A stretch of 46,101 nt of DNA from Gemmatimonadota bacterium (GCA_016874035.1 VGVM01000016.1:1-46101), one strand, 5' to 3'. Positions 2,650-17,488 are shown, counted from the stretch's first letter. Numbers and translations are program-made. Notes: a model not told the origin generated them from the letters alone.

Positions 2650-4968
2650 ATGCTCAGCGGACTATTCGAGTTCCTGTTCAAGTACCGCCTCGCGGTCTTT
2701 GAGGAAGGTGAGTTCACGCTCGGCGCGCCCCTGCCGCTGATCCTGATCGTCGGCGGAGCAATCGTGCTCGCGGTCCCCGCGATGACGACGTACTTCCGGG
2801 TGCGCGGGAAGAGTTCGGCGCGCGACCGCGTGGTGTTGACGGCGATCCGGGTCGCGTTGTTGACCGTGGTGGTGGGCTGCCTGTTCCGCCCGATGCTCCT
2901 GCTGTCCGAGGCGGTCCCGCGCCGCAACTTTGTCGGCGTGCTGCTCGACGATTCGCGCAGCATGCGGATTGCCGACCGCGGTGACCGTGCCCGCGCCGAC
3001 TTCGTGCGCGACACGCTTGGCGAGTCATCGGCGCTTCTGGCGCGGCTGCGCGAGCGGTTCCAGGTCCGGTTGTTCAAGTTCGGGACCTCGTCGGCCCGCG
3101 CCGACAGCGCCGGCGGCCTGACGTTCGAGGATCGCGAGACCCGGTTGGTGGACGCGGTCGAGGCCGCCCGGCAGGACCTCGACGCGGTGCCGCTCTCCGG
3201 CCTGGTGGTCGTATCGGACGGCGCCGACAACGCGCTCACCGAGGTCAACGACGCCCTGCTCAACCTGCGGGCGCGCGGCGTCCCGGTGTTCACGGTCGGC
3301 GTCGGGGCGGAGCGATTCCAGCGCGACATCGAGGTCCAGCGCGTGGAGGTCGCGCGCCAGGTACTGCTTGGCGGCACGCTGGTGGCGGACGTGATCGTCC
3401 GCCAGCGCGGCTTTGATGGCGATACGGTGCCGCTGGTCGTCGAGGATGAAGGACGCATCGTCGCGAGCGCGACGGTCCGGATGCCGGCGGGCACCGAGGC
3501 CGCTCCCGTCCGCGTGACGGTGCGAATGACCGAGCCGGGGCCGCGGGTCCTGGCGTTTCGCATCCCGTTGCAGGATCGCGAACAAGTCGTGGAGAACAAT
3601 GCGCAGCGCTCGCTCGTGACGGTGCGCGACAACGTCGAGCGCGTGCTGTACGTCGAGGGCGAGCCGCGCTACGAGGTGCGGTTCATCCGCGCGGCGGTCG
3701 AGGCAGACAGCAACGTGCAGGTGGTGCTGCTGCAACGCACGGCCGAGGGCAAGTTCCTGCGGCTCGGCGTCAGCACCGGCGACGAACTCGTAGCGGGTTT
3801 TCCCAAGACGCGAGCCGAGCTGTACCGGTATCGTGGGATCATCCTCGGCAGCATCGAGGCGAGCTTCTTCAGTCACGACCAGCTCACGATGCTCAGCGAC
3901 TTCGTGAGTGTGCGCGGTGGCGGGCTCTTGCTGCTCGGCGGGCGCCGCTCGTTTTCCGAAGGGGGCTACGCCGGCACGCCGCTGGCCGATGCGATGCCCG
4001 TCGTGGTCGAGGGCGCGGCGATCGCCGACAGCCTCACCTTCTTCTCCGACCTGGTCGCCTCGATCACGCCGGCAGGACTCGGCCACGCCGTCACGCAGAT
4101 CGGGACCGCTCGCGTGAGCACGGCCGACCGCTGGCCGCAGATGCCGCCGGTGACGTCGGTGAATCGCATCCGGCGCGTGAAGCCGGGCGCGGTGGTCCTG
4201 TTGAACGGGCGCATGCCACAGGGCGGGCGTGCGGGCGAGCCCGGCGAGACGCTTTCCGGTTACGAGCAGCCGATTGTCGCGTACCAGCGGTTCGGGCGCG
4301 GGCTCGTCGTCGCCATGCCGGTGCAGGATGACTGGCAGTGGAAGATGCACGCCGACATTCCGGTCGAGGATCTCACCTTCGACACGTTCTGGCGGCAGAT
4401 GCTTCGCTGGATCACCAGCGACGTGCCCGGACGCGTCTCGACGCGCGCCACTCCGGATCAGGTGAACCCGCGCTCGTCCGTGCAGTTGCGCTCGGTCGTG
4501 CTTGACAGCGCGTACCTGCGGGTGAACGATGCCAAGGTGAGCGCCATCGTCACTGCGCCGTCCGGCGCGCAGCAGACGCTCGCCCTCGACTGGGCCGTGG
4601 ACGAGGACGGCGAGTACCGCGGCAGCTTCGTGCCATCGGAAGAAGGCGTGTATCGGGTAAGCACGAAGGCGGACATGGCGTACGGGGCGGTAGGCGACGA
4701 GACGTTCATTCGCTCGGCGCCGCTCGACGCCGAGTACACGCTGGCGGAGATGCGACGGCCGCTCATGCAGCGGATCGCGGACGAAACCGGCGGGCGATTC
4801 TACACGCCGGAGACCGTCGGCACATTGCCCGAAGACATCGCGATGACCAAGCGCGGCGTGACCGTGATCAACCAGATGGACCTGTGGGACATGCCGGTGA
4901 TCTTCCTGCTGCTGGTCGGCCTCGCCTCGTCGGAATGGGTGTACCGCAAGGTCCGGGGGCTGGCATGA
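2650..4968 (+). CDS. Membrane protein with VWA domain and glutamine-amidotransferase-like fold
   Basis: 772 residues. Two N-terminal membrane segments (about 28-48 and 62-82) precede a von Willebrand A domain with the metal-binding DxSxS motif at D100-D-S102-R-S104 and VVVSDGADN further on. A middle Ig-like region is followed by a class-I amidotransferase-like fold (GIILGSIEASFFS, then RGGGLLLLGGRRSFSEGG) that lacks a nucleophile Cys, as is usual for this membrane family. A C-terminal hydrophobic helix (VIFLLLVGLASSEWVY) returns to the membrane. Most of the protein is therefore expected in the periplasm. Proteins of this build typically sit in MoxR/DUF58/BatA clusters, as here. Its stop overlaps the next start by four bases (ATGA), so the two are probably translated together. 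The biochemical role is not known. Confidence 0.88.
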   Translation: MLSGLFEFLFKYRLAVFEEGEFTLGAPLPLILIVGGAIVLAVPAMTTYFRVRGKSSARDRVVLTAIRVALLTVVVGCLFRPMLLLSEAVPRRNFVGVLLDDSRSMRIADRGDRARADFVRDTLGESSALLARLRERFQVRLFKFGTSSARADSAGGLTFEDRETRLVDAVEAARQDLDAVPLSGLVVVSDGADNALTEVNDALLNLRARGVPVFTVGVGAERFQRDIEVQRVEVARQVLLGGTLVADVIVRQRGFDGDTVPLVVEDEGRIVASATVRMPAGTEAAPVRVTVRMTEPGPRVLAFRIPLQDREQVVENNAQRSLVTVRDNVERVLYVEGEPRYEVRFIRAAVEADSNVQVVLLQRTAEGKFLRLGVSTGDELVAGFPKTRAELYRYRGIILGSIEASFFSHDQLTMLSDFVSVRGGGLLLLGGRRSFSEGGYAGTPLADAMPVVVEGAAIADSLTFFSDLVASITPAGLGHAVTQIGTARVSTADRWPQMPPVTSVNRIRRVKPGAVVLLNGRMPQGGRAGEPGETLSGYEQPIVAYQRFGRGLVVAMPVQDDWQWKMHADIPVEDLTFDTFWRQMLRWITSDVPGRVSTRATPDQVNPRSSVQLRSVVLDSAYLRVNDAKVSAIVTAPSGAQQTLALDWAVDEDGEYRGSFVPSEEGVYRVSTKADMAYGAVGDETFIRSAPLDAEYTLAEMRRPLMQRIADETGGRFYTPETVGTLPEDIAMTKRGVTVINQMDLWDMPVIFLLLVGLASSEWVYRKVRGLA

Positions 4969-5963
4969 GGCGCGCCGCACTCGTTGCGCTGGCTTTCGTG
5001 GCTGCGGTGCCGGCGCTTGCCACACCGGCGGCGGCACAATCGCACGTCCTCATCGTCTCCGGCCTTGGCGGCGAACCGCGGTTCGCCGAGCGCTTCCGTA
5101 CGTTGGGCGCGCAGCTCACGGCGGCGATGCGCGCGCGCTATGGCATCGCGGACGCGAACATCGCGTGGCTCGGCGAGGACTCGACCAACGCGGAACCGCG
5201 GTATCGCGGCCGCTCCACGCGCGACGCCGTGGAGCGCGAGATGGCCGCGATTCGCGTGCGCGCACGGCCCGGCGAGCAGGTCGTGCTCATGTTCATCGGC
5301 CACGGGTCCGACAACGACGTGGATTCGAAGTTGAGCGTGCCGGGCACGGATGTCGGCGTGACTGACGTGAAACGATGGTTCGAGGCGATGCCGCTCCAGC
5401 GACTCGCGTTCGTCAACCTGTCGAGCGGGAGCGGCGATTTCCTGCGGCACCTCGCGGCGCCGGGGCGCGTCATCATCACCGCGACCAAGACGTCGTACGA
5501 GCGCAACGAATCGCGCTTCGGCGAGCATTTCGTCGCGGCGCTTGCGCGCGACGTGGCGGACGTGGACAAGGACGGACGCACGTCGTTGCTCGAGGCGTTC
5601 CGCTACGCGGCCCGTGAGACCAAGCGCCTGTATGACGACGCGAGCCGGCTGCAAAGCGAGCATTCGCAGCTGGACGACAACGGGAGTACGGTGAACACGG
5701 CCGAGCCCGACGGGCGCACCGGCCAGGGCGCGCTGGCGCGCCGGTTCTTCCTGGACGCGCGCGCCATTCCCGCTGCGGCCGCCGGCGATGCGCGCCTCGC
5801 CGGCCTCTACCAGGAGCGGTTTGAGCTGGAAGAGCGCGTGGACTCACTGCGCCTGAAGAAGGCATCGCTCGCCGAGGACGCCTATTACGGCGAACTGGAA
5901 CGCGTGCTGGTCGCGCTCGCGCGCAAGGCGAGGGAAATCCGGCAGGCGGAGGGCCGGCCGTGA
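4965..5963 (+). CDS. Cysteine-free caspase/legumain-like (C13-type) secreted protein, predicted pseudo-peptidase
   Basis: 332 residues, ATG 4965 chosen because it overlaps the previous stop (ATGA) and starts a clean signal peptide (MRRAALVALA ... PAAAQ, about 1-25). The core resembles the caspase-hemoglobinase fold: a beta strand VLIVSGLGG, a helix, then VVLMFIGHGS with the candidate catalytic His113, and a strand LAFVNLSSGSG (residues 147-157) where active relatives carry the nucleophile Cys before the SG. That position is Leu152 or Ser153 here, and the whole protein contains no cysteine. A perfect 12-residue EF-hand-type calcium loop, D199-V-D-K-D-G-R-T-S-L-L-E210, follows, then SEHSQLDDNG and a C-terminal coiled-coil-like helix. 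It is therefore probably a non-catalytic scaffold or binding protein, with calcium as a likely ligand. It overlaps the next gene by four bases. The fold call is inference from motifs. Confidence 0.8.
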   Translation: MRRAALVALAFVAAVPALATPAAAQSHVLIVSGLGGEPRFAERFRTLGAQLTAAMRARYGIADANIAWLGEDSTNAEPRYRGRSTRDAVEREMAAIRVRARPGEQVVLMFIGHGSDNDVDSKLSVPGTDVGVTDVKRWFEAMPLQRLAFVNLSSGSGDFLRHLAAPGRVIITATKTSYERNESRFGEHFVAALARDVADVDKDGRTSLLEAFRYAARETKRLYDDASRLQSEHSQLDDNGSTVNTAEPDGRTGQGALARRFFLDARAIPAAAAGDARLAGLYQERFELEERVDSLRLKKASLAEDAYYGELERVLVALARKAREIRQAEGRP

Positions 5964-8608
5964 TCCTCGCCAGGGTGCTGGGATTGCTTCTTGTCGTCGG
6001 CGGCGCGCTACCGCTAGCCGCGCAGGAGCAGCCGCCGCGGCCTGAGTCCGTGCCGGAAGCGCGGCTCGCGATCTGGAGCGGGCGCTACGAGCAGGGCCTC
6101 GCGTTTCTTGAGCGCGTGCCGCGGTCAGACACCGCCTGGTTCAGCGTCCAGCTCGACATCGGCCGGACCTACGCGACGATGAGCCGGTATGATGACGCGG
6201 AGCGGGTCATCCGCGTCGCCGCGGCGTCGGCGCAGGGCAGGGATGCGTGGACCACGCTCGGCGAAGTGATGCGCGAACGCGGAAAGCTCGCCGCGGCCGA
6301 TTCCGCATTCCGACGCGCCATTGCCGATCGCGGGGCCGACACGCTCGTGGCGCAACTGCGGCTTGCGCAGTTGGCCGAGCAGCGCGGCGACCCGGCGACG
6401 GCGCGGCGCGGCTACGACGCGTTCATTGACGTGTACAACACGAGTGCCGACCGGCTCGACAGCCGCGAGATGGCGGCGGTCGCCGAGGCCGTGCGGGCCC
6501 TGGGCGCGACGAACCCCGCGCTGTTCCGCGATGCGCTCCGTGCGTTCGACCGCGCCGCAAATCTCGACTCATCGAACCTCGATGCCCGCACCGCGCTCGG
6601 TGAGATGTTCCTCGAGAAGTTCAACGCCGCCGAGGCGCAGAAGACGATTGACGAGACCCTGCAACTGAACGAGCGATACCCGCGGGCACTGGTCGCCGCG
6701 GCGGCGCGCGCGGTGTTCGACGGGCAGCCGGGCGCGGACTCGCTCCTCACGCTCGCGCTGACGGTGAGCCCGGAGTACGTGCCGGCGCGCGTGATGGTGG
6801 CGCGTGCCGCGCTGGACGTGGAGCGATACGCCGACGCCGTGCGGGAGGCCGAACGCGCCTTGCGCACCAACCCGGTGGACGTGGCGGCGCTCGGGGTGCT
6901 CGGGGCGGCGAAATACTCGTTGGGCGATATGCGCGGGTACGACGAGGCGCGTGCGCGCGCGCAGGCGGTGAACCCGCGTGACGCGACGTTCTTCATGGCG
7001 CTCGCCGAGGCGAGCGGGCGGATCCGGCGCTACGCGAACGCCGCGGAGTTCGCGGAGCGGGCGATCGCAGCGGATTCGAGCAAGTGGCGCGCGTGGGCGT
7101 TGCTCGGCACGAACCGCCTGCGGTTGGGCCGCATCGCCGACGGGCGTCGGGCCCTCGAAGCCGCGTTCGCCGGCGACCCGTATGACGTATGGACCAAGAA
7201 CACGCTCGACCTGCTCGACACGTTCAAGAACTACGAGACGACGAAGAGCGAGCATGCCGAGTTCATGATTGAGAAGGCGGAATCGCCGGTGCTGTCGCTG
7301 TACCTGCGCGACATCGCGGAGCGGGCGTACGTCACGTTCTCGAAGCGATATGCCTTCGCGCCCAATGAACCCATCCGGATCGAGGTGTACCGCAGCCATG
7401 CGGACTTCTCGGTGCGCACCGTGGGTCTCGCCGGCCTTGGCGCGCTGGGCGTGAGTTTCGGGAACACACTGGCGTTCGACTCGCCGGCGGCGAAGGACGC
7501 CGGCCCGTTCAACTGGGCGTCCACGGTGTGGCATGAGCTCGCGCACACGTTCACGCTGGGCGCGACGGACCATCGTGTGCCTCGGTGGTTCTCGGAAGGA
7601 CTCTCCGTGTGGGAGGAACACCAGGCGCGTCCGGGCTGGGGTGCCCAGCTCTCGCCGGCGTTCCTCGAGGCGATCCAGAAGAACCGGCTTGTTCCCGTGA
7701 GCCGCATGAACGATGGGTTCATGCGCCCCGTGTACCCGGAGCAGATCGGCCATTCGTACTACCAGGCGTCGCTGGTGTGCGAATGGATCGCGAAGGAGTG
7801 GAACGCCGCGGCGCTGGTGGCGCTCCTCGGCGAGTACAAGGCGGGCCGCACGACCGATGAGGCGGTGCAGAAGGTGCTGGGCATTGACATGCGCACGATG
7901 GATCGCCGCTTCGACGCGTGGATGCGCGAGCGGTTCGCGCGTCCGCTTGCGGCGATGGCCCAAGCCGGCCCGGAGTACGCCGCCGGCATGCAGGCCGAGC
8001 AGCTCAAGGCCGTCGCTGACTCGCTCAAGGGCAGCTGGCGCGCGCAGATGGCCGCGGCGGACGCGCTGGCGCGGATCGGCGATCGCGCCGACGCCATCCG
8101 CCTGCTCGAGCGCGCCCACGCACTGATCCCCGAGTTTGGTGGGGACGGTTCGCCGGCGGACTTGCTGGCCGCGGCGTACATCGCGCGCAGCGACACCGCC
8201 AAGGCGATCGCCATGCTGAAGGTCGTCGCGGTGGGTGACGAGGCAGCTTTCGACGCCAATGTGCAGCTGGCGGTGCTTGCGCTGGCGACCCGCGACTCGG
8301 CGACGGCGTTCGACGCGCTCGACCGCGCCGTGTTGATCAATCCGTTCCCGGCCGAGCACCACCATTCGCTGGCCGTGCTGGCGGCGGCGCGCAAGGACCT
8401 GGCGGTCGTCGTCCGCGAACGCGAGGCGATCGTGGCGCTCGACCCGGTGGACAAGGCGACCGCCTACTATGATCTGGCAGTGGCGTATCGCGACGTCGGC
8501 AACGCCGCGTCGGCCAAGCGTGCGGCACTCCGCGCGCTCGAGGATGCACCGAACTTCACACGCGCGCAGGAGTTGCTCTTGCAGATCGTGGACGGGAGGA
8601 CGCCATGA
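5960..8608 (+). CDS. TPR-repeat exported protein with peptidase-MA-like gluzincin domain
   Basis: 882 residues from a GTG start that overlaps the previous stop (GTGA). A signal peptide (MILARVLGLLLVVGGALPLAAQ) leads into tetratricopeptide helices for about 400 residues (for example PEYVPARVMVARAALDVERY and PRDATFFMALAEASGRIRRY). The central domain has the zinc motif HELAH at 525-529 and a third ligand Glu546 in WFSEGLSVWEE, the pattern of the peptidase MA-like/gluzincin superfamily. More TPR-like helices follow to the C-terminus. It should act in the periplasm, either cutting a protein held by the TPRs or serving as a scaffold. The position between the pseudo-caspase and the DUF4159 protein ties it to the MoxR/VWA operon. 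Fold and metal site are clear; substrate is unknown. Confidence 0.88.
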   Translation: MILARVLGLLLVVGGALPLAAQEQPPRPESVPEARLAIWSGRYEQGLAFLERVPRSDTAWFSVQLDIGRTYATMSRYDDAERVIRVAAASAQGRDAWTTLGEVMRERGKLAAADSAFRRAIADRGADTLVAQLRLAQLAEQRGDPATARRGYDAFIDVYNTSADRLDSREMAAVAEAVRALGATNPALFRDALRAFDRAANLDSSNLDARTALGEMFLEKFNAAEAQKTIDETLQLNERYPRALVAAAARAVFDGQPGADSLLTLALTVSPEYVPARVMVARAALDVERYADAVREAERALRTNPVDVAALGVLGAAKYSLGDMRGYDEARARAQAVNPRDATFFMALAEASGRIRRYANAAEFAERAIAADSSKWRAWALLGTNRLRLGRIADGRRALEAAFAGDPYDVWTKNTLDLLDTFKNYETTKSEHAEFMIEKAESPVLSLYLRDIAERAYVTFSKRYAFAPNEPIRIEVYRSHADFSVRTVGLAGLGALGVSFGNTLAFDSPAAKDAGPFNWASTVWHELAHTFTLGATDHRVPRWFSEGLSVWEEHQARPGWGAQLSPAFLEAIQKNRLVPVSRMNDGFMRPVYPEQIGHSYYQASLVCEWIAKEWNAAALVALLGEYKAGRTTDEAVQKVLGIDMRTMDRRFDAWMRERFARPLAAMAQAGPEYAAGMQAEQLKAVADSLKGSWRAQMAAADALARIGDRADAIRLLERAHALIPEFGGDGSPADLLAAAYIARSDTAKAIAMLKVVAVGDEAAFDANVQLAVLALATRDSATAFDALDRAVLINPFPAEHHHSLAVLAAARKDLAVVVREREAIVALDPVDKATAYYDLAVAYRDVGNAASAKRAALRALEDAPNFTRAQELLLQIVDGRTP

Positions 8609-9501
8609 AGCACGCGATGCGCGGTGTATGCGGCGCCGCCGGCGCCATGCTCTTGCTCGCGGCCGTTGCGACCGACGCAGGGGCCCAGCGCGGTCGCCGT
8701 TTCCCCGGCGGTGACTTCGGTATGGGTGCGCTCGGCGACCCGAACTCGTTCTACACGCCGCCGGACTTCCGCGGCAACCCGCCCTACGACGGGCGCTTCA
8801 CGTTTGCGCGCATCAAGTACCGCGGGTTCGGCCATTGGTCCGGGCGCGAGGGGCCGGGGTGGTCGCACGACTATCCTGACGCCGACGTGCACCTCACGAA
8901 GATCATCCGTGAGATCACGACCATGCGCCCCTTCACGAACCTCGGCGACATCATCGGCGGCGCGATCGTCGCGCTGGATGACCCCGCCCTCGCGAAGTAT
9001 CCGGTCGCGTACCTCTCGGAACCCGGTGCGTGGTACCCCAATCCCGACGAGGCCGCGGGGCTGCGGAAGTTCCTGCTCAAGGGCGGCTTCGTGATCGTGG
9101 ACGACTTCAACGGGTTCGGCGATTGGCCGACGTTCGAGGCGGCAATCCAGAAGGTGGTCCCTGAACTGCAACCGATCCCCCTCAAGGGCACCGAGGCGAT
9201 CTTCGACTCGTTTTTTAAGGTGGACATCCGTGGCATCGGCCAGTCCAACGGAGATCTTGGCGGCTTCGGTGGGCGCGGCGGTCGAGGCGGATTCCGTGGC
9301 GGTGGTGGCGGTCCGCCTTATGGGTTCTACGGCATCTTCGAGAAGAACGACCCGACCAAGCGCCTCATGATGCTCGTGTGCTACGGGCGCGATATCGGCG
9401 AGGCGTGGCAATGGTCCGGCAGCGGCTTCGTTCCGGTGGACGAATCCAACGAAGCGTTCAAGCTGGGCGTGAACTTCATCATCTACGCGCTGACGCATTA
9501 G
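8605..9501 (+). CDS. DUF4159 domain-containing exported protein
   Basis: 298 residues. ATG 8605 overlaps the previous stop by four bases and is preceded by a good ribosome-binding site (GGGAGGA). A signal peptide (MKHAMRGVCG ... ATDAGAQ) is followed by the DUF4159 fold: FTFARIKYRG, WSHDYPDADVHL, a strand PVAYLSEPGAW, GLRKFLLKGGFVIVDDFNG and DWPTFEAAIQKV. The middle strand-loop pattern is like the amidotransferase-like part of the VWA membrane protein upstream. Near residues 219-238 a Gly/Arg-rich loop interrupts the domain, like inserts seen in several other proteins of this window. DUF4159 proteins are habitually encoded next to MoxR, DUF58 and BatA genes, so it is probably a partner in the same envelope complex. 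Enzymatic activity is unknown. Confidence 0.9.
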   Translation: MKHAMRGVCGAAGAMLLLAAVATDAGAQRGRRFPGGDFGMGALGDPNSFYTPPDFRGNPPYDGRFTFARIKYRGFGHWSGREGPGWSHDYPDADVHLTKIIREITTMRPFTNLGDIIGGAIVALDDPALAKYPVAYLSEPGAWYPNPDEAAGLRKFLLKGGFVIVDDFNGFGDWPTFEAAIQKVVPELQPIPLKGTEAIFDSFFKVDIRGIGQSNGDLGGFGGRGGRGGFRGGGGGPPYGFYGIFEKNDPTKRLMMLVCYGRDIGEAWQWSGSGFVPVDESNEAFKLGVNFIIYALTH

Positions 9502-9552: not shown

Positions 9553-10587
<1,035 letters not shown>

Positions 10588-10599
10588 CAGAGGGCCGCG

Positions 10600-11592
10600 A
10601 TGACCACTTCGGCGCGGGCGACCGGCACGGAGTTCCTCGATCCCGCGATCCTGACGCGGATCGGGAACCTCGAGTTCATCGCCAAGGCGGTGGTCGAGGG
10701 GTTCATCAACGGCCTGCACCGTTCGCCGCACCTCGGGTCCTCCACGGACTTCGCGGAGCACCGCCAGTACATGCCGGGCGACGATATCCGCCGGATCGAC
10801 TGGCGCGTGTTCGCGCGGTCGGACCGCTTCTACGTGAAGGAGTTCGAGGCCGACACCAACGCGAACTTCCTGGCGATCGTGGACGTCAGTCCCTCGATGC
10901 GCTACAAGGGCTCGACGGCGCCGATCAGCAAGCTCGAGTACGCGTGCTTCCTCGCAGCGGCCCTGGCGTACTTCTCCAGCGGACAGCGCGACCGCGTCGG
11001 GCTCGCGACCTTCGACCACGACATCACCGACTACATCCCGCCGTCGGCGAAGCACCTCCGGCAGGTGCTGCACGCACTTGATCGTGCGTTCCGGGCCGGG
11101 GCGGTGCATTCGCCGGACGAGGCGTCGGTCGCGGCGAGCGGGTTCACGGAACCGAAGTCGCCGAACCCGGCGGCGCGGGCGTCCATGCTGCCCGCCATGA
11201 AGAAGCTCTCGGAATCGGTGCGGCGGCGGTCGATCGTGCTCATGATCTCGGACCTGTACGAGGATCCCAAGGCCGTCTTCGATTCGCTGGATCACCTGCG
11301 CGGCCGCGGCAACGACCTGATCTGCTTCCACCTGCTTGATCGCGACGAGATGGACTTCCCGTTCGCGGAGTCCGGACGGTTCGTGGACATCGAGACGGGT
11401 GAGGTGCTCCCGCTGATTCCCGAGTTCCTCCGGAAGCAATACCGCGCGCTCATCGAGTCGCACACGGGCGAGCTCGCGCGGCTCGCGCGCGAACGGCGCA
11501 TTGACTACGCCCGCTTCGATACGTCGCGCCCGCTGTCCGATGCGCTCTATGCGTACCTCGGGGCTCGCGAACACTTCAACCGCGTGCGGTAG
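10600..11592 (+). CDS. DUF58 / VWA-like protein, MoxR partner
   Basis: 330 residues. The DUF58 signature is present: RQYMPGDDIRRIDWRVFARSD (split across residues ~58-78), followed by YVKEFEADTN and a VWA-type strand LAIVDVSPSM carrying a DxSxS metal-binding motif at D95, S97 and S99. The N-terminus lacks the membrane helices found in some DUF58 proteins, so it is likely cytoplasmic or peripheral and may contact MoxR directly. A helical C-terminus with ELARLARERRIDYARFDT completes the usual length. It starts 12 bp after moxR-family gene and is followed after only 6 bp by the BatA-like gene. Assignment is firm; the client protein is unknown. Confidence 0.93.
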   Translation: MTTSARATGTEFLDPAILTRIGNLEFIAKAVVEGFINGLHRSPHLGSSTDFAEHRQYMPGDDIRRIDWRVFARSDRFYVKEFEADTNANFLAIVDVSPSMRYKGSTAPISKLEYACFLAAALAYFSSGQRDRVGLATFDHDITDYIPPSAKHLRQVLHALDRAFRAGAVHSPDEASVAASGFTEPKSPNPAARASMLPAMKKLSESVRRRSIVLMISDLYEDPKAVFDSLDHLRGRGNDLICFHLLDRDEMDFPFAESGRFVDIETGEVLPLIPEFLRKQYRALIESHTGELARLARERRIDYARFDTSRPLSDALYAYLGAREHFNRVR

Positions 11593-11598
11593 CAGCCC

Positions 11599-13719
11599 AT
11601 GTCGCTGTTGGCGCCGTGGTTCCTGGCCGGGCTCGTCGCGATCGGCGTACCGATCGCGATTCACCTGATCAATCGCGAGCGGAAGACCGTCGTCCCGTTC
11701 CCGTCGCTGATGTTCCTGCAGCGCGTGCCGTACCGCTCGATCCGCCGACAGAAGTTGCGGCACATCCTCTTGTTCGCGCTGCGGGTCGCGGCGCTCGTCC
11801 TGTTCATCTCGGCGTTTGCGCGACCGTTCTTCTCGCGTCCGGTGACGGCCGTGGCGACCGGCGGCGCGCGCGAGGTGGTCATCCTCGTGGATCGTTCTTA
11901 CTCGATGGGCTATGCCGGCCGTTGGCGTGCGGCGCAGGACTCGGCGAAGGCCGTGATCGGCCGGCTGGGCGCCGCCGACCGCGCGACGGTCGTCAGCTTC
12001 GCCAACGATGCGTCCGCGTTGACGGAGCCGACGTCGGACAAGCTCGAGTTGACGCGCGCGATCGAGCGCACCACGGTCGGGAGCGAAGGCACGCGGTTCG
12101 CGACGGCGCTCAAGCTCGCGGGAGACATCCTTGGCGCGTCGGAGCTTCCGACGCGGGAGGTCGCGCTGGTGTCCGACTTCCAGCGCAGGGGGTGGTCGGC
12201 GCGCACCGAGTTGCGACTCCCGCCCGGCGTGACGATCACGACGCACGATGTCGGCGTCGGGGCGGCGTCGGACCTTGCCGTCGCCACGGTGACCACGGAT
12301 CGCGACGCCGATGAGCCGAATGCCCCGGTGACGGTGGTCGCGCGGCTCACGAACACGGGCGCCGCGGCGAAGACCGTCACGGCTTCGCTCGAACTCGCCG
12401 GTCGCCCGGCGGGAAGCGCGAGCGTCTCCGTGCCGGCCAGCGGCGCGGCGCAGGTCCGATTTCCCGCCGTCGTGGTGCCAAGCGGTGTTACGCGTGGTGT
12501 GGTGCGGATCCCCGGCGATGAGCTGGCGGCGAACGACGCGTTCTACTTCACGCTTGCGCCGGACGAGGCCATCTCCGTGCTCGTCGTCGAGCCGCTGCGT
12601 GCGCGCGCCAACGAGGCACTGTATGTACGCCGCGCGCTGGAGATCGGCGACCAGCCACGCTTTCGCGTGGACATCAAGCGGGTGGACTCGCTCACGCCCC
12701 GTGACTTTGCCGGCCGTTCGCTCATTGTGGTCGACGAAGTCGCCCCGCCGGGCGCCGACCTTGGCGTCGCGCTGCGGGCGGAACTCCGAGGGGGCGCCGG
12801 CGTCCTGTTCGTCCCGGGCGATGTGGCGAGCGACCGGATTCCGCGCGAGTGGAACGACGTGCTGCGCACCGGTATCGGCGAGGTGCTCGACCGGACGCCG
12901 CTGGGTGGCGCGCGGATCGCGCGGGTCAACTATTCCAGCCCGATCTTTGAGGCGTTTGCGGCGCCCGGAAGCGGCGACTTCGCGTCCGCCCATGTGTTTC
13001 GGCATCGGCAACTGCGCGTAGCGGGCGACAGCGGCGTGCTCGCTTGGTTCGATGATGGCTCGCCCGCGCTGGTGGAGCGATCCGTGGGCCGGGGTCGCAT
13101 GACGATCTGGCCGTCCACGCTCGACGATTTCTGGACCGATCTCCCGACGCAGCCGGTATTCCTCCCCTTCATTCGGCAGTTGGCGCGGCATACCGGGCGC
13201 TACAGCGACCCGCGGTCGTGGTTCACGGCCGGCGAGATCCTCGACCTGACCCGGCACGCGGAGCTGACGGCCCAGTTCGCCGCTCGCTCTTCGGCGGCCG
13301 CGGAAGGGTCGGGGCAGGCCGGTGGCGGTGGGTCGCGCTCGATGAGCGGACTCAGCCTGTATGGCCCAGCGGGAAAGCGCGTGCGGTTCAGCGACAGCGT
13401 TCGCGCCACCCCACTCGTAGATCGAGGGTTCCACGAGCTGCGCGGCACCGAGACAGCCGAGGGCGCGGGGCGGTTCATCGCGGTGAACGTGGACCTCGCC
13501 GAGTCCGACCTGGCGCACATGGACGCCGAGGAGTTGGCGACCGCGGCGTTGGCGAACTCCGGTGGTGGCGTGGGCGGCTCCGGTGGGCTCGACGCCACTG
13601 CGGCGGAGCGGGAACGGAACCAACGGGTCTGGTGGTATCTTCTGATTGCGACGTTCCTGGTGTTGGCGGCCGAGACTTTGCTGTCAAACCGCCTGTCCGG
13701 TACGGTCACGGCGCAGTAG
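11599..13719 (+). CDS. BatA-like VWA membrane protein
   Basis: 706 residues. The N-terminus matches the aerotolerance-regulator (BatA N-terminal) domain: a first helix PWFLAGLVAIGVPIAIHLIN, then VVPFPSLMFLQRVP, Arg-rich RRQKLRHILL and a second helix LLFALRVAALVLFISAFARP. A VWA domain with D98-R-S100-Y-S102 (ILVDRSYSMGYAG) follows. Two Ig-like regions, a second alpha/beta region (AVALR/RGGAGVLFVPG) and a C-terminal membrane helix (WWYLLIATFLVLAAETLL) complete it. It should be anchored in the inner membrane with its bulk outside the cytoplasm. It lies between the DUF58 gene (6-bp gap) and the DUF4175-like gene. Bat proteins are linked to oxygen tolerance and envelope protein maturation in Bacteroides and Leptospira; the role here is inferred from family and context. 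Confidence 0.92.
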   Translation: MSLLAPWFLAGLVAIGVPIAIHLINRERKTVVPFPSLMFLQRVPYRSIRRQKLRHILLFALRVAALVLFISAFARPFFSRPVTAVATGGAREVVILVDRSYSMGYAGRWRAAQDSAKAVIGRLGAADRATVVSFANDASALTEPTSDKLELTRAIERTTVGSEGTRFATALKLAGDILGASELPTREVALVSDFQRRGWSARTELRLPPGVTITTHDVGVGAASDLAVATVTTDRDADEPNAPVTVVARLTNTGAAAKTVTASLELAGRPAGSASVSVPASGAAQVRFPAVVVPSGVTRGVVRIPGDELAANDAFYFTLAPDEAISVLVVEPLRARANEALYVRRALEIGDQPRFRVDIKRVDSLTPRDFAGRSLIVVDEVAPPGADLGVALRAELRGGAGVLFVPGDVASDRIPREWNDVLRTGIGEVLDRTPLGGARIARVNYSSPIFEAFAAPGSGDFASAHVFRHRQLRVAGDSGVLAWFDDGSPALVERSVGRGRMTIWPSTLDDFWTDLPTQPVFLPFIRQLARHTGRYSDPRSWFTAGEILDLTRHAELTAQFAARSSAAAEGSGQAGGGGSRSMSGLSLYGPAGKRVRFSDSVRATPLVDRGFHELRGTETAEGAGRFIAVNVDLAESDLAHMDAEELATAALANSGGGVGGSGGLDATAAERERNQRVWWYLLIATFLVLAAETLLSNRLSGTVTAQ

Positions 13720-13777: not shown

Positions 13778-17488
<3,711 letters not shown>

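Follow-up and report, generated by a model that had tools for sequence, protein, structure and literature searches.

A legumain-fold protein lacking the catalytic cysteine within a MoxR/VWA operon of Gemmatimonadota and Acidobacteriota

The window, which is the whole stretch of DNA analysed here (46,101 nucleotides, Gemmatimonadota bacterium, GCA_016874035.1 VGVM01000016.1:1-46101), carries a conserved gene set on its plus strand. The first gene of the set (2650–4968) encodes VWAGAT, a Bat-like VWA membrane protein with one inserted GATase1-like domain. It is followed by pLEG (4965–5963), a name coined here for a pseudo-C13, legumain-fold, exported protein, which is 332 residues in length and was assigned through its ORF, fold and homologues. 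Further downstream are the genes of an exported TPR protein with a Peptidase_MA_2 domain (5960–8608), an exported DUF4159 protein (8605–9501), one MoxR AAA+ ATPase (AAA_3; 9553–10587), a DUF58 protein (10600–11592), one BatA-type membrane VWA protein (11599–13719) and one DUF4175 membrane protein (13778–17488), the final gene of the set. The MoxR, DUF58 and BatA-type VWA genes occur together in the window and across loci, in agreement with the MoxR/VWA operon context noted in the initial annotation. The DUF4175 gene also contains, at 16798–17022, ∼25 copies of the 9-base repeat GCAGCAGGG, which translate into a Gln/Gly-rich run.

The pLEG gene starts with the ATG at 4965, which together with the stop of the upstream gene forms an ATGA overlap (4965–4968); at its other end, it shares GTGA (5960–5963) with the downstream gene. 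As revealed by inspection and hydropathy, the protein begins with a signal peptide (residues 1–25, MRRAALVALAFVAAVPALATPAAAQ; 4965–5039). The ORF, its start, the signal peptide and the overlaps with both neighbours, all proposed earlier, were borne out from the window sequence. Residue conservation was analysed in 128 non-redundant pLEG homologues (<90% identity), which belong to Gemmatimonadota and Acidobacteriota, apart from a few MAGs with other labels. With dN/dS values of 0.06–0.41 (15 pairs, signal peptide left out), pLEG is under purifying selection; together with the conservation, these values rule out a pseudogene. Due to the purifying selection and the conserved neighbourhood, the conservation of pLEG is above chance, and the description of pLEG as a conserved and exported protein holds.

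The AlphaFold model of pLEG has a pLDDT of 87.2 and a pTM of 0.80. Its best structural match is legumain (4nol; Z 21.1, rmsd 2.6 Å, 204 aligned residues), followed by metacaspase-4 (6w8r; Z 19.7); the catalytic subunit of GPI transamidase (8imx, 7w72) gave a Z of 17.7. A second structure search matched the model to legumain 4awb with an E of 1.1e-7. The caspase/legumain-like fold that had been read from sequence motifs was therefore confirmed. The legumain-type matches span residues 22–269 of pLEG; the C-terminal helical hairpin (residues 276–329; 5790–5951) lies outside the matched part. At the sequence level, the window pLEG alone has no Pfam match over the gathering score and none in NCBIfam or PDB sequences. 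Peptidase_C13 matches 20 of 43 pLEG homologues (E up to 1; best 2.4e-7), and Peptidase_C14 is absent from the 25 families listed for these 43 proteins. The homologue profile reaches metacaspase-4 at 5.3e-6, and one profile–profile comparison (hhalign) between pLEG and Cys-bearing C13 proteins gave P 99.1 and E 9.5e-19. According to the family matches and the profile–profile comparison, the nearest relatives of pLEG are C13, not p20/C14, proteins. Since the pLEG family groups as a single clade apart from the C13 outgroup (SH-aLRT 100), a single ancient loss of the Cys is the simplest account.

The equivalent of the catalytic His lies in Gly112-His113-Gly114 (5298–5306). His113, which is part of an IGHG motif, is present in 128/128 homologues, so the candidate catalytic histidine of the initial annotation is indeed kept. 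The nucleophile position had been placed at Leu152/Ser153, which is off by one or two residues: C13 ISACYSGGF and pLEG VNLSSGSGDF align without gap, with the Cys of 11 Pseudomonadota C13 proteins over Ser154. The Cys-bearing caspase/C13 homologues of Acidobacteriota (L187, L188 and L190) show the same alignment, and the Cys of the C13 profile aligns with the EACESG loop of legumain. Because the Cys-bearing C13 proteins align there without gap, we assigned the nucleophile column to Ser154; the segment Ser154-Gly-Ser156-Gly157 (5424–5435) is the equivalent of Cys-x-Ser-Gly. Position 154 is occupied by Ser (114 homologues), Thr (4), Gly (4), Ala (3), Asn (1), Pro (1) or Asp (1), and by Cys in none of the 128; the nucleophile Cys is thus always absent. 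The four Thr-bearing homologues belong to loci L148, L077, L085 and L023. One acidobacterial homologue (L167) has a Cys at 155 (TSCSG), one residue past the catalytic column. It is the only candidate for a Cys relocated nearby, and the homologues have no conserved Cys elsewhere.

Like His113, residues Gly127, Asp129, Asp199, Glu210 and Glu232 are invariant (128/128), and Gly33, Ser156, Gly112, Gly114, Ala173 and Thr174 are nearly so. Glu232 is located at the start of one strand, followed by His233 (5658–5663; His233 in 102/128). The strictness of His113 indicates that the loop of the former active site remains important; judged by homology, the invariant residues would line one cleft.

The EF-hand-like loop D199–E210 (DVDKDGRTSLLE; 5559–5594) sits between helices 185–194 and 208–225 of the model. 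It had been described as a perfect 12-residue loop, which is correct for ligand positions 1, 3, 5, 9 and 12; these are kept in the window pLEG and in 123/128 homologues, so that the loop is nearly always retained. It is not correct for the strict PROSITE pattern PS00018, which matches 5/128 homologues, the window pLEG not among them; the window loop has Thr at position 8 and Ala after the Glu. Similar loops follow the Cys in Cys-bearing caspase relatives from loci L197 (ADADGDHRVTVSEL), L199 (ADSDGDGQISAIEL) and L182 (ADANGNGKVTVKEI), and are also carried by the Cys-bearing relatives L190 (ADADLDGRVLLDE) and L188 (ADSNGDGRTTMEE). Therefore, the implied novelty of the calcium loop was given up. 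These comparisons suggest that the loop was either inherited from an ancestor or acquired several times within the caspase fold, rather than being special to the dead branch.

The complete lack of Cys in the window pLEG was also confirmed, and 101/128 homologues have no Cys after residue 26. However, the weight that had been placed on this absence is not justified, because BatA (706 residues), MoxR (344 residues) and the DUF4175 protein (1236 residues) of the same operon are Cys-free too; the 882-residue TPR protein has one Cys. We therefore dropped total Cys absence as a signal.

VWAGAT contains a pair of transmembrane helices at its N-terminus, joined by a basic loop, and one C-terminal helix; following the positive-inside rule, its VWA and GATase1-like domains are predicted to be periplasmic. 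Its MIDAS motif is DDSRS; DxSxS is present in 73/78 relatives, and the remainder are mostly cut by contig ends. The VWAGAT model contains a Bat-type VWA domain (BatB 3ibs, Z 18.1; 4jdu, Z 18.9) and a GATase1-like domain at about residues 328–593 (3rht, Z 22.6). In the model, the VWA domain appears to be split by the GATase1-like insert and completed near residues 700–740. The TPR protein keeps HExxH with a downstream SEG motif (HExxH...E) in 67/67 relatives, which indicates that the gene next to the dead pLEG encodes an intact zinc metallopeptidase.

The order VWAGAT - pLEG - TPR/metallopeptidase - DUF4159 - MoxR - DUF58 - BatA - DUF4175 recurs in both phyla. VWAGAT is the fixed neighbour, located directly upstream of pLEG in 54 of 55 non-redundant loci, and the TPR-metallopeptidase is downstream in 46/54. 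In a group of Vicinamibacteria (L126 and L128) the genes are rearranged into DUF58 - BatA - DUF4175 - VWAGAT - pLEG, with the VWAGAT-pLEG pair intact. Since the acidobacterial loci L116, L118, L126 and L128 keep pLEG with VWAGAT but have no TPR-metallopeptidase after it, VWAGAT is the firmer partner. In L113 and L127, the TPR-metallopeptidase is the sole operon homologue found upstream of pLEG and ends right before it; no VWAGAT match was found within the stretch examined. Many loci (L076, L079, L087, L088, L092, L108, L129 and others) carry a second DUF4159 gene directly upstream of VWAGAT, which the window does not have.

In the protein search, pLEG was found in 28 of 61 related genomes. VWAGAT is present in all 28 and in one extra genome, which is 61% complete; except for the latter, the pLEG-less genomes contain BatA relatives that are distant at best (E 1e-17 or weaker). 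The gene set is thus present or absent as a unit. A profile of 27 orthologues matched 125 of 249 Gemmatimonadota genomes, about 122 of them strongly. With a wider profile, matches were obtained in 69 of the 199 genomes belonging to the phylum of L113 (titled Acidobacteria), 53 of them below E 1e-60; strong matches were counted by hand. Scanning of contigs gave further loci titled Gemmatimonadetes, Acidobacteria, Vicinamibacteria and Blastocatellia, and pLEG in single MAGs titled Pseudomonadales, Gammaproteobacteria, Arenicellales, Acidimicrobiia and Kuenenia. In the tree, the Kuenenia and Acidimicrobiia rows nest inside gemmatimonad/acidobacterial clades; therefore, the single MAGs titled to other groups may be misbinned. 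Among 398 Pseudomonadota genomes, full-length pLEG was found only in the centre genome. The remaining matches do not exceed 68 bits, and the 11 best of them are Cys-bearing C13 proteins, all matching PF01650. In genome G033 (loci L026 and L029) the pLEG frame is split over two overlapping frames, possibly by a frameshift or a sequencing error.

Taken together, we consider it probable that pLEG is a catalytically dead protein of the legumain (C13) branch and that it is a subunit without enzymatic function in a periplasmic Bat-like complex. The catalytic Cys is lost across both phyla, yet the protein is strictly conserved beside the periplasmic MoxR/VWA set; for this reason its function is most likely one of binding and assembly, not cleavage, which agrees with the binding or structural role suggested initially. 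Gene order and co-occurrence suggest that pLEG interacts with its partners. The ancestral cleft, formed by the His113 loop, the Ser154-Gly-Ser-Gly loop, the Gly33/Gly36 loop, Asp129 and Glu232, may hold a peptide or the end of a protein uncleaved, while a putative Ca2+ in the D199–E210 loop would steady the domain and the C-terminal hairpin would dock pLEG to its partners. Within the complex, pLEG and VWAGAT could present or position the bound client, which would then be handled by the adjacent active TPR metallopeptidase and/or the VWA proteins. The cytosolic MoxR-DUF58 pair probably serves the VWA proteins, in maturation or remodelling. MoxR has been proposed to aid metal loading of the Bat MIDAS (PMC3557215).

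Ser or Thr at the exact Cys position in 118/128 homologues, the invariant His113, and the closeness of the fold to both legumain and GPI8, relatives that include transpeptidases, would also suit an active caspase-fold hydrolase or transamidase that uses Ser154 (or Thr) with His113. We regard such an enzyme as quite unlikely, since position 154 is Gly, Ala, Pro, Asp or Asn in 10/128 homologues that keep the other invariant residues, which makes an essential Ser nucleophile unlikely, and clan CD enzymes are not known to use Ser. It is very improbable, by our estimate, that the Cys was switched to Ser/Thr to give a periplasmic peptidase or transpeptidase within the MoxR/VWA machine and that secondary losses followed in a few lineages. 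The initial annotation had named an active serine triad as evidence against a pseudo-peptidase. As 114 homologues have Ser, some residual catalysis may persist; the 10 substitutions argue against an essential Ser nucleophile. A similar replacement is found in SERA5, where Ser takes the place of the catalytic Cys: the protein still binds peptide, its role is non-enzymatic, and Ala is tolerated at that position (PMC4671257). SERA5 is a papain-family protein of a eukaryotic parasite, so the likeness is an analogy only and lends plausibility, not more, to a binding role of pLEG.

The export of pLEG, the invariant ends of the EF-like loop and its well-kept ligand positions would agree with a mainly Ca2+-dependent structural or adhesion protein whose old cleft has no role. 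However, residues of the old active-site loops (Gly33, His113, Gly127, Asp129 and Ser156) are as invariant as the loop or nearly so. As Cys-bearing caspase relatives have similar loops, the EF-like loop alone does not define the role, and this explanation seems unlikely to us. Pseudopeptidases that regulate active peptidases are described (PMC11266112), and the pLEG gene adjoins and overlaps that of the TPR protein, whose HExxH is intact throughout. Accordingly, pLEG might act on the adjacent TPR metallopeptidase alone, mimicking its substrate and regulating it as an inhibitor or chaperone; we rate this as very unlikely, because the four acidobacterial loci keep the VWAGAT-pLEG pair with no TPR-metallopeptidase following.

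Sets of Bat/MoxR genes occur widely and have no settled function; the role of Bat is called elusive in PMC3557215. Here, one version of the set is linked, in two phyla, to a dedicated and ancient legumain-fold protein that is catalytically dead. As a soluble, exported and probably peptide-binding subunit, pLEG offers a defined handle for finding the target of the machine. Like the known Bat (Bacteroides aerotolerance) and MoxR-DUF58-VWA operons, the pLEG set contains MoxR, DUF58 and a BatA-type VWA protein; different from them, it adds VWAGAT with the inserted GATase1-like domain, pLEG, the TPR-metallopeptidase, DUF4159 and DUF4175. In the vWA-MoxR ternary conflict systems, MoxR and VWA genes likewise lie near caspase-like domains (PMC7159879). 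However, that paper does not mention DUF58, BatA or legumain, and pLEG is exported and Cys-less; classification of the pLEG set as such a conflict system is thus unsupported.

Our literature search found no paper mentioning DUF4159 and none describing the VWAGAT-pLEG gene set. The claim that such a protein had not been described stands in part: neither a paper nor a family model for pLEG was found, whereas pseudo-caspases as such are known in bacteria, with 862 pseudo-orthocaspases reported (dyads YS, YA, FS, QC and HA; PMC6426788). Like pLEG, these are bacterial caspase-fold proteins without the His-Cys dyad and are conserved across lineages. Different from pLEG, which never loses its His and is nearest to C13, they are p20 (C14) proteins with Tyr-Ser, Tyr-Ala, Phe-Ser, Gln-Cys or His-Ala, mainly from Alphaproteobacteria and Cyanobacteria. 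With legumain and Peptidase family C13 (PF01650), including the Cys-bearing C13 proteins of Pseudomonadota, pLEG has the fold, the GHG histidine loop, the x-x-Ser-Gly loop and the strand order in common. Compared to C13, it lacks the nucleophile Cys throughout, carries an EF-like loop that was not seen in the 11 Cys-bearing C13 proteins compared, and adds the C-terminal helical hairpin and the operon context. With pLEG, the known bacterial pseudo-caspases gain a C13 branch.
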